Shown piece after piece: positions 53,354-56,060 of a stretch of 63,404 nucleotides of DNA; positions within the stretch are counted from its first letter, which is position 1; every line of letters starts with the position of its first letter. Both the position numbers and the translations under genes were made by a program. This stretch comes from Gammaproteobacteria bacterium (GTDB lineage: Bacteria > Pseudomonadota > Gammaproteobacteria > Arenicellales > Arenicellaceae), in NCBI GenBank assembly GCA_022447525.1, contig JAKVBA010000013.1:1-63404 (forward strand), read 5' to 3'. The notes below the pieces were generated by a model. That model saw only the letters and a list, made by a program, of their open reading frames with translations, was not told the origin of the DNA and made no database searches.

Positions 53354-54244
53354 TCAGGCCTTTTCGATTTCTGATAACTTCTCCCGAGTCATAAATTCAA
53401 AATCGCTGGCATCATGTCGCTCCGCAAGCTGACCCTCTGGTTTGCCCCAAACTCTATTGACCATAACGGCGCGTTTAACCGCGGGGCGGTTCTTTATTTC
53501 CTTCGCCCATCGAACGACATGTTCATAGCTCTCTGCCTGTAAAAATTCCGCGGCGCTGTAAACGGTATTCATTACCAGAGCACCGTACCATGGCCACACA
53601 GCGATATCGGCTATACTATATTCGTCTCCAGCGAGAAACTGATTATTCTCAAGTTGCCTGTTTAGTACATCTAATTGGCGTTTCACTTCCATAGTAAAAC
53701 GGTCGATACAGTATTGTATTTTAATCGGCGCATAGGAATAAAAATGCCCAAACCCTCCACCTAAATAAGGCGCACTGCCCATTTGCCAAAACAACCAGTT
53801 CAATACTTCCACACGCTTATGTGACTCAGATGGAATAAATGCGGCAAACTTCTCAGCTAAGTGCAATAAAATTGACCCAGACTCAAATACTCTGACAGGC
53901 TCTATTCCAGACTTGTCTATCAGCGCCGGGATTTTCGAATTTGGGTTAATGTCAACAAAACCACTGCCAAACTGATCTCCCTCATTTATTCGTATCAGAT
54001 GAGCATCGTATTCCGCATCTGAATAACCTGCAGCAAGAAGCTCTTCAAACATCATTGTAATCTTGACCCCGTTCGGGGTAGCCAAAGAGTAGAGTTGAAA
54101 TGGGTGTTTGCCCACAGGCAACTGTTTTTCGTGCGTAGCGCCAGCCAGTGGTCGATTAATCTTTGCAAACTCGCCACCATTACTATGCTCCCATACCCAA
54201 ACATCGGCTGGCTCATATCCAGCTGGAAAATTTTCGTTACTCAT
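53354..54244 (-). CDS. yghU: Glutathione S-transferase family protein, YghU-type disulfide-bond oxidoreductase
   Basis: Protein of 296 residues resembling E. coli YghU, a GST-fold enzyme that reduces disulfides with two bound glutathiones. The family pattern is WVWEHSNGGEFAKINRPLAG, HPFQLYSLATPNGVKIT, VFESGSILLHLAEK and LFWQMGSAPYLGGGFGHF. The YghU-like N-terminal extension before the thioredoxin fold is present. Identification at subfamily level is good. Confidence 0.92.
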   Translation of the reverse strand: MSNENFPAGYEPADVWVWEHSNGGEFAKINRPLAGATHEKQLPVGKHPFQLYSLATPNGVKITMMFEELLAAGYSDAEYDAHLIRINEGDQFGSGFVDINPNSKIPALIDKSGIEPVRVFESGSILLHLAEKFAAFIPSESHKRVEVLNWLFWQMGSAPYLGGGFGHFYSYAPIKIQYCIDRFTMEVKRQLDVLNRQLENNQFLAGDEYSIADIAVWPWYGALVMNTVYSAAEFLQAESYEHVVRWAKEIKNRPAVKRAVMVNRVWGKPEGQLAERHDASDFEFMTREKLSEIEKA

Positions 54245-54407: not shown

Positions 54408-56060
54408 TCAGGCCACAATTTCTTCAAACAAGGAATAGTAGATATGCTCACTGTAGCCCTCTCGAACATGGATCTTTTTATTCGGAAGCTGTCTGAAAAC
54501 TGTATCAACTCCCTCACGCGTAATTCGTCGGTCCTCAGTTCCGTACCAAATATCCACTGGAATGGTAATTTTACTAAGATCTAAGTGTAAAGGTGTCATA
54601 CAGTAGACCATCTCGTGGAGAATGCCGTCCAAGCTCTGTCGAGCGCCTTCCTTAAAAACATCAGTAAGGAGTTGAAAGGTGTTTTCTTTTTCAAATAACG
54701 CTTGCTCTGCACTGCCAACACTCTCAGAAAGAATGGCTATGTAGTGTGCATCGAAATTCAAGGTGATGGCTTTCAACCAAAGAGTGTAAATTTCCTTCGC
54801 AAACTGAGGCGACATTTTTACGTACTTTGCTGCAGGCGCCAATATTTCAGTGAGGTATTCTGCATCAGAATCCTCATTCAAATAAACAGGCGAGGTAAGA
54901 ATCAACTTTTTTTGCCTAGGATCAGCCTCAGCAGTGTAGGACATTGCCATCTGACAAGCGATGATACTGCCAAGAATGTCGTACTCTTTTAATCCTAATT
55001 TGTCGATGAATTCCATTAACTGTCGATTCCACTGGTCGGGATGCCCCTCCACGAATGGCGTTTTACCTAGCCCCGGACGGTCTGGAACAATCAGCCTCTT
55101 GTTTTGTCTCTCACAGACTTTTTCATACCCTTTGGGAATTGCCAAACGAGAGCCAAATCCACTGTGAAAAACTACAACGGGATAACCATCTTCAGGACCA
55201 TAATCACAATAAGAAACCTCTAAACCACAAGATAATATAAGTGATCTATCGCTGGCACTGTCTTGCATCCGAGCAACAGTGGTGATGTCAGAATTAAAAT
55301 ACGAATCTAGGACTTGTGACTCATGCGTCAGGGTCAAGCTGATTAGTGCTCCTTGAGACTTCGTTTCTGTCTTGCGAAAAATAGCCTTCAAATGGCTTCG
55401 GATTGTATTCTCGCTGACAAAAGAGGCTTCAGCTATTTGTTTTATGTTGTCACCATGAATCAAGCGCACAACAACATTTTGCTCTTTCTCAGTCAGTCCA
55501 TACTCTGCCACTAAGTCAGGATTTAACTGAACATAATCCGCACCTGGATTGAGCATCATCAAGATATGAAACTTGCTCGGCTGATTAGTCCCGCTGACCT
55601 TGCTGGAGATAGTTCTAATATATAGGTGTCCGCCATTTGGTTCGATAAAATCCAAGGCTTGCATAGCACTAATCTCTTTTTCAGCTTGGAAATCTAAGGC
55701 TTGTTGGATTTTTTGCACTAAGTCGAGCTTAAGAGCCCCAGTTGTTGAGTCCTGTAAAAACTGAAATAAGTCAGTCGCTATGCGATTGTGGTAGAGAGGT
55801 TTCAAATGATCATCTAAGATGATCATTTGAAACCGGCTCTTGTCCAACAAAGTGTTGAACGCATCAATAGCTGCATTACCTTGGCTTAATCGCGACAGTA
55901 TTTCTTCTCCTGCAGCAAGCTCTAGCAAGTTCAGAGGATCGGCTACATCCTCTGTCTCGTCCAGATATTGTTGCATCATCTCCACAATGTAGTCATCATG
56001 CCATCGTTCAGGCTTACCAATGATACGGTAGATCAAACCACTGAAATTTGAGTCACTCAT
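54408..56060 (-). CDS. LuxR-type HTH regulator fused to an alpha/beta-hydrolase domain
   Basis: Protein of 550 residues. The N-terminal part (about 60-175) looks PAS-like, the LuxR-type HTH is at 189-243 (YGLTEKEQNVVVRLIHGDNI, SENTIRSHLKAIFRK), and an alpha/beta-hydrolase fold runs from about 280 to the end (VVVFHSGFGSRL, LIVPDRPGLGKTPF, IWYGTEDRRIT). The nucleophile elbow, expected as GxSxG, reads DILGSIIACQMA, so Ser is shifted and the second Gly lost. Asp and His positions look intact. The fold may bind a ligand rather than hydrolyse it. A perfect 16-bp inverted repeat is embedded at 55799-55833. Confidence 0.83.
   Translation of the reverse strand: MSDSNFSGLIYRIIGKPERWHDDYIVEMMQQYLDETEDVADPLNLLELAAGEEILSRLSQGNAAIDAFNTLLDKSRFQMIILDDHLKPLYHNRIATDLFQFLQDSTTGALKLDLVQKIQQALDFQAEKEISAMQALDFIEPNGGHLYIRTISSKVSGTNQPSKFHILMMLNPGADYVQLNPDLVAEYGLTEKEQNVVVRLIHGDNIKQIAEASFVSENTIRSHLKAIFRKTETKSQGALISLTLTHESQVLDSYFNSDITTVARMQDSASDRSLILSCGLEVSYCDYGPEDGYPVVVFHSGFGSRLAIPKGYEKVCERQNKRLIVPDRPGLGKTPFVEGHPDQWNRQLMEFIDKLGLKEYDILGSIIACQMAMSYTAEADPRQKKLILTSPVYLNEDSDAEYLTEILAPAAKYVKMSPQFAKEIYTLWLKAITLNFDAHYIAILSESVGSAEQALFEKENTFQLLTDVFKEGARQSLDGILHEMVYCMTPLHLDLSKITIPVDIWYGTEDRRITREGVDTVFRQLPNKKIHVREGYSEHIYYSLFEEIVA
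55799..55833. repeat. Perfect 16-bp inverted repeat, 3-base loop, inside the LuxR-hydrolase gene
   Basis: The sequence GTTTCAAATGATCATC, then TAA, then GATGATCATTTGAAAC is an exact 16-bp dyad. It lies within codons ~76-88 of the LuxR-hydrolase fusion, in the PAS-like region. As RNA it would form a strong hairpin in the 5' third of the message; as DNA it could be a binding site. Confidence 0.95.

Follow-up and report, generated by a model that had tools for sequence, protein, structure and literature searches.

The gene at positions 54408-56060 of the analysed DNA stretch (63,404 nt of contig JAKVBA010000013.1, hereafter the window) encodes a 550-aa protein in which a PAS-like region, a LuxR-type helix-turn-helix (HTH) and a C-terminal alpha/beta-hydrolase (ABH) domain are fused, and in which the catalytic nucleophile of the hydrolase is replaced by Ile366. 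All 26 close family members, the window gene included, carry Ile or Val at this position. We consider it probable, at roughly two in three, that the protein is a one-component regulator whose ABH domain is a pseudo-enzyme that binds a ligand or partner without hydrolysing it.

Domain layout of the fusion protein

The open reading frame (ORF), its strand and the combination of a LuxR part with a C-terminal hydrolase were found by ORF and Pfam analysis as given in the preliminary description. The following features were assigned:

54408..56060, minus strand: whole gene, fusion of PAS-like region, LuxR HTH and ABH domain, 550 aa (ORF, Pfam, 25 further close relatives in the genus)
55536..55835, minus strand: PAS-like region, residues ~76-175 (suggested by the predicted order of strands and helices)
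55338..55496, minus strand: LuxR/GerE helix-turn-helix in the middle of the chain, residues 189-241 (Pfam; aligns to VpsT)
54411..55247, minus strand: C-terminal ABH domain, residues 272-550 (Pfam, HMMER, hhalign, model, fold match)
55146..55166, minus strand: oxyanion-loop region H299-S-G-F-G-S-R305, with the canonical HG changed to H-S/N (family alignment, hhalign)
54954..54971, minus strand: nucleophile elbow G364-S-I-I-A-C369, with I366 at the position of the catalytic Ser (alignments, hhalign, HMMER)
54531..54533, minus strand: Asp510, equivalent of the catalytic acid, 26/26 (family alignment, hhalign)
54444..54446, minus strand: His539, which probably corresponds to the catalytic His, 25/26 (alignment; register uncertain by one residue)

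The GerE family (PF00196) passed its Pfam cut-off with 36.5 against 23.5 bits at residues 189-241. The hydrolase family PF00561 stayed below its cut-off (21.3 against 25.8 bits, E 2.5e-4, residues 294-536); membership in the alpha/beta-hydrolase superfamily was obtained from profile-profile comparison (hhalign, 99.8%, E 1.2e-28) and from the fold match (Z 17.5). No NCBIfam model reached its cut-off among the best 25 of 27 matches, and the autoinducer-binding model TIGR03541 matched the window protein only at the HTH (188-244). At the level of sequence profiles, an autoinducer-binding domain was absent from the nine Pfam families that the window protein matches with E values of up to 1, and from 25 of the 36 Pfam families listed for the 31 members of our search profile A1.

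The N-terminal assignment is putative. With E values of up to 1 allowed, Pfam showed no PAS match in the window protein; 2 of the 31 family members gave one at E up to 0.1. The order of strands and helices fits a PAS-like fold in a full-length model of low confidence (pLDDT 52.1). This region was the least conserved of the four parts compared, with a mean column conservation of 0.529 versus 0.669 for the ABH domain. In L041 and L051 it holds about 22 residues more than in the other rows.

The former active site and its conservation in the Arenicella clade

The elbow of the window protein reads YDILG364-S365-I366-I367-A368-C369. When six ABH domains of the family were aligned by hhalign with 12 stand-alone hydrolases, I366 took the place of the catalytic Ser and D510 that of the catalytic Asp, the alignment ending before the His. 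HMMER alignments to 1a88 and to PhaZ (8ynv; S102A mutant 8ynw) gave the same elbow register. In place of the Ser, Asp or Cys of a GxNxG elbow the protein thus has an isoleucine, and the broken GxSxG elbow noted beforehand as GSIIAC is borne out. The retained Asp region stood as well: Asp510 lies after strand 7, where the catalytic acid is expected, and is kept in all 26 rows. For the His region the agreement was partial, as His539 is located in the expected loop after the last strand and is conserved in 25/26 rows (Tyr in L014), with the canonical His one column earlier in the wide alignment. The HSGFG oxyanion turn is present in altered form: where a canonical HG has its Gly, every one of the 26 rows has Ser or Asn.

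Structure models, made with six sequences, were of mediocre quality, with a pLDDT of 67.8 and a pTM of 0.68 for the ABH domain. In the domain model a strand ends at residue 364 and a helix starts at residue 369, as they should in a nucleophile elbow. The best fold match was 9wlv (Z 17.5, rmsd 3.5, 238 residues aligned). VIA-align listed 50 hydrolase-fold entries at Z 16.0-17.5, so that the fold match does not select a functional class.

We searched 61 genomes, 18 of the window's genus (its own included) and 43 from elsewhere. Besides the window gene, 25 close relatives with 43-72% identity to the window protein were found; with the window gene they come from 16 of the 18 genomes, among them the window's own. 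Outside the genus, all 43 genomes provided only much weaker partial matches or none. Five of five named loci found with the window protein belong to uncultured Arenicella MAGs, and the window is therefore taken to come from Arenicella or a very close neighbour. Within the 26 rows, H299, G301, G303, R305, D510 and R512 are invariant. Residue 365 is variable (S in 17, T in 5, A in 2 and H in 2 rows). The Ile/Val state is common to a 10-row subclade that contains the window gene and to a 16-row sister subclade, with members down to 43% identical to the window protein.

The ABH domain is under purifying selection. Its dN/dS was 0.016-0.078 in three close pairs (three of five pairs were computable, with dS near saturation). 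No internal stop was seen in the 26 matches, one of which (L010) ends at the end of its contig; together with the low dN/dS this led us to discard a pseudogene or an assembly error. The conservation of the broken elbow in all rows makes it more than a chance event, and with the low dN/dS of the ABH domain it indicates that the domain is maintained without its nucleophile.

The wider family of fusions and the gene neighbourhood

Fusions of LuxR and ABH domains recur in Gamma- and Alphaproteobacteria. The genus itself holds seven more distant fusions, whose nucleophile positions are occupied by A, S, Y, M, M, M or N. The one with Ser, the Arenicella paralogue L043 (G007 contig 10), shows the reverse pattern of loss, a GRSAG elbow without acid or His. 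A wider search of 274 genomes of the class and 398 of the phylum (overlapping sets), for which the top five or three candidates per genome were scored under strict E-value limits, and of eight plasmid records provided 61 further scorable fusions (7 from the class, 46 from the phylum, 8 from plasmids).

A nominal set of nucleophile, acid and His was present in 13 of 94 fusions (0/26 close, 0/7 distant genus, 13/61 others), a count that leaves out the false match L093, compared with 21 of the 22 best-scoring and 20 of 20 further stand-alone ABH controls found with the same profile. The rows are related among themselves, so that these counts are not independent, and the catalytic columns are aligned with uncertainty in the more distant fusions. 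The profile A1 consists mostly of nucleophile-less fusions and may favour such relatives; it also found the intact stand-alone controls. The lone exception among the controls (L135) sits about 3 kb from a fusion (L088) of the same genome, and the search match of L084, also listed with the controls, contains a stop. The comparison with fused homologues called for in the preliminary description thus replaces its picture of a single odd protein by that of a whole family with variable and frequently absent catalytic residues.

On a 107-row tree built without the catalytic columns the nucleophile state requires at least 12 changes. This tree was built by a quick method and has long branches, 37 of its 104 inner branches are open, and the direction of change, loss or gain, is our reading of it. 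The fusions presumably descend from active enzymes. Two scans found no viral relatives.

Several individual loci deserve mention. The fusions L056 and L090 have an Asp nucleophile (GYDxG) and a nominally complete triad, in which they resemble dehalogenases or epoxide hydrolases. At L073/L139 (G181 contig 2, 189000-193000) two LuxR-type matches, with open frames of 679 and 438 aa, flank an intact stand-alone ABH that belongs to the nearest family, all on one strand; this arrangement is possibly an unfused form of the LuxR-ABH pairing. At L149, on plasmid pBSY240_1 of Agrobacterium sp. RAC06, a separate alpha/beta-hydrolase gene adjoins the fusion on the opposite strand.

The neighbourhood of the window gene is rarely shared: of 23 other loci, many with flanks of 1-2 kb, only L051 and L052 have neighbours in common with it. 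A glutathione S-transferase gene (window 53354-54244, minus strand) lies downstream of the regulator on the same strand. A same-strand glutathione S-transferase also follows the regulator in L051, with another ORF in between, and in L052; none was found in the sequence covered around L053-L055. The neighbourhood was discarded as a clue to the ligand, as the genes at L053-L055 differ from those of the window and the nine checked with Pfam have no common theme. A promoter and terminator scan found sites no more numerous than in shuffled sequences. A second LuxR-type gene (contig C35 63929-64093, minus strand, 261-aa frame) lies about 8 kb away, just past the window end.

Reading of the hydrolase domain and comparison with known systems

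The preferred reading has to be weighed against three others. That the ABH domain is a functionless, decaying relic of the fusion would agree with the missing catalytic residue and with the frequent absence of such residues across the family, but uninterrupted frames, dN/dS values far below 1 and an Ile/Val state held in two diverged subclades make it highly improbable. An ABH domain that is still an enzyme, acting via Ser365, Cys369 or an activated water, would agree with the retention of Asp and His, and Ser365 and Cys369 are invariant among the 10 rows that group with the window gene. Of the 16 rows of the sister subclade, however, 9 have T, A or H at position 365, and at position 369 there are 14 with Ser, one with Cys and one with Ala. 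Neither residue falls on the nucleophile in the profile alignment, and the HG of the oxyanion loop is altered as well. We therefore dismissed Ser365 as a relocated nucleophile, since it is replaceable and aligns one residue before the nucleophile, and likewise Cys369, given the Ser or Ala in 15/16 sister rows; continued catalysis appears very unlikely. This also bears on where Ser365 falls, a check proposed at the outset: the alignments place it off the nucleophile position, and in the domain model the elbow lies between the strand that ends at 364 and the helix that starts at 369.

The main rival is a purely structural role, such as dimerisation, in which the ABH domain would set the oligomeric state or shield the HTH and would have no small-molecule ligand. 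Across the wider family many members lack the acid or the His as well (kept in 46/61 and about 26/61 of the other fusions), as if the fold alone mattered. A scaffold would have no need for the six invariant residues and the nearly invariant His539 of the Arenicella clade, and we regard this role as unlikely, though the least so of the three. A hydrolase that has lost its nucleophile is supported by the fixation of this loss in the Arenicella clade, by purifying selection, by the retention of H299, R305, D510 and H539 and by the replaceable position 365. The earlier proposal of a former hydrolase coupled to a DNA-binding domain is hence well supported, and its ligand-binding sensor is the best reading, which we infer.

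For a regulator with a pseudo-enzyme domain, Ile or Val in place of the nucleophile would not be expected to allow a covalent enzyme intermediate. Of the former active site the ABH domain retains the Asp-His side, along with the invariant oxyanion-loop Arg, and it would bind a small molecule (or a partner protein) there without turnover. Its ligand state may then change DNA binding by the central LuxR HTH, signalling being presumed to run in this direction, and the PAS-like part may act as a second input to the HTH. The regulator's DNA targets are likewise presumed.

More tentatively, and with somewhat less than even odds, the fusions may form a class of bacterial one-component receptors (PAS-LuxR-pseudohydrolase) that is widespread and so far undescribed. 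Hydrolases would then have turned on many independent occasions into receptors that bind small molecules without hydrolysing them, the very fusion to a DNA-binding domain would have freed the enzyme from catalysis, and the several paralogues of many Arenicella genomes would be tuned to different ligands. We found no paper describing PAS-LuxR-ABH fusions among the open-access PMC papers listed by our searches, and the excerpted texts of PMC3466318, PMC11878206, PMC2447327 and PMC7159879 do not describe them. A bacterial family that combines nominally intact, half-lost and fully lost triads with a fused DNA-binding output would allow the transition from hydrolase to receptor to be traced stepwise and tested in simple reporter assays. 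Several of the plasmid fusions are annotated as 'alpha/beta fold hydrolase' or 'alpha/beta hydrolase', and some genes so annotated are probably regulators and not enzymes.

The conversion of hydrolases to receptors is known best from plant hormones, and receptors of the proposed class would, if real, be bacterial counterparts of the gibberellin receptor. This receptor, GID1, acts via DELLA proteins and not via a fused DNA-binding domain. Like the window protein it has a hydrolase fold that lacks a catalytic residue, and it is a non-hydrolytic receptor; in GID1 the His is gone and the Ser remains, whereas in the Arenicella clade the nucleophile is missing and Asp and His persist (PMC3531792, in excerpt). 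The strigolactone receptor DAD2 also employs the hydrolase fold in signal perception, but, unlike the window protein, it has a complete catalytic triad and requires it for activity (same excerpt).

Stand-alone hydrolases of the type HGxPGSR...GxSGGGP...EGH (for example L070 and L075; solved relative 9wlv) are close relatives of the ABH domain (hhalign 99.8%), but their triad is intact and no LuxR part is in frame. The Ruegeria sp. TM1040 fusion WP_011536845.1 (L056) has the same order, LuxR then ABH, and a similar length (545 aa); in contrast to the window protein it carries GYDAG with Asp at the nucleophile, and with Asp and His a nominally complete set.

In the RsbQ-RsbP system an alpha/beta hydrolase acts with a PAS domain as a single sensor, and 45 adjacent RsbQ/RsbP-PAS pairs are reported from diverse bacteria (excerpt of PMC3183031). 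The likeness lies in the coupling of such a sensor to a signalling output. RsbQ, though, is encoded as a protein of its own and requires its conserved Ser-Asp-His triad, whereas the window protein is a single chain without nucleophile and thus lacks both the separate adjacent hydrolase and the intact triad of an RsbQ-PAS module. The outputs named for RsbQ-PAS are phosphatase, histidine kinase and diguanylate cyclase, with LuxR unmentioned in the text (PMC3183031), while that of the window protein is a LuxR HTH. On the best explanation, the window regulator would resemble GID1 as well as an RsbQ-PAS module in fused form.
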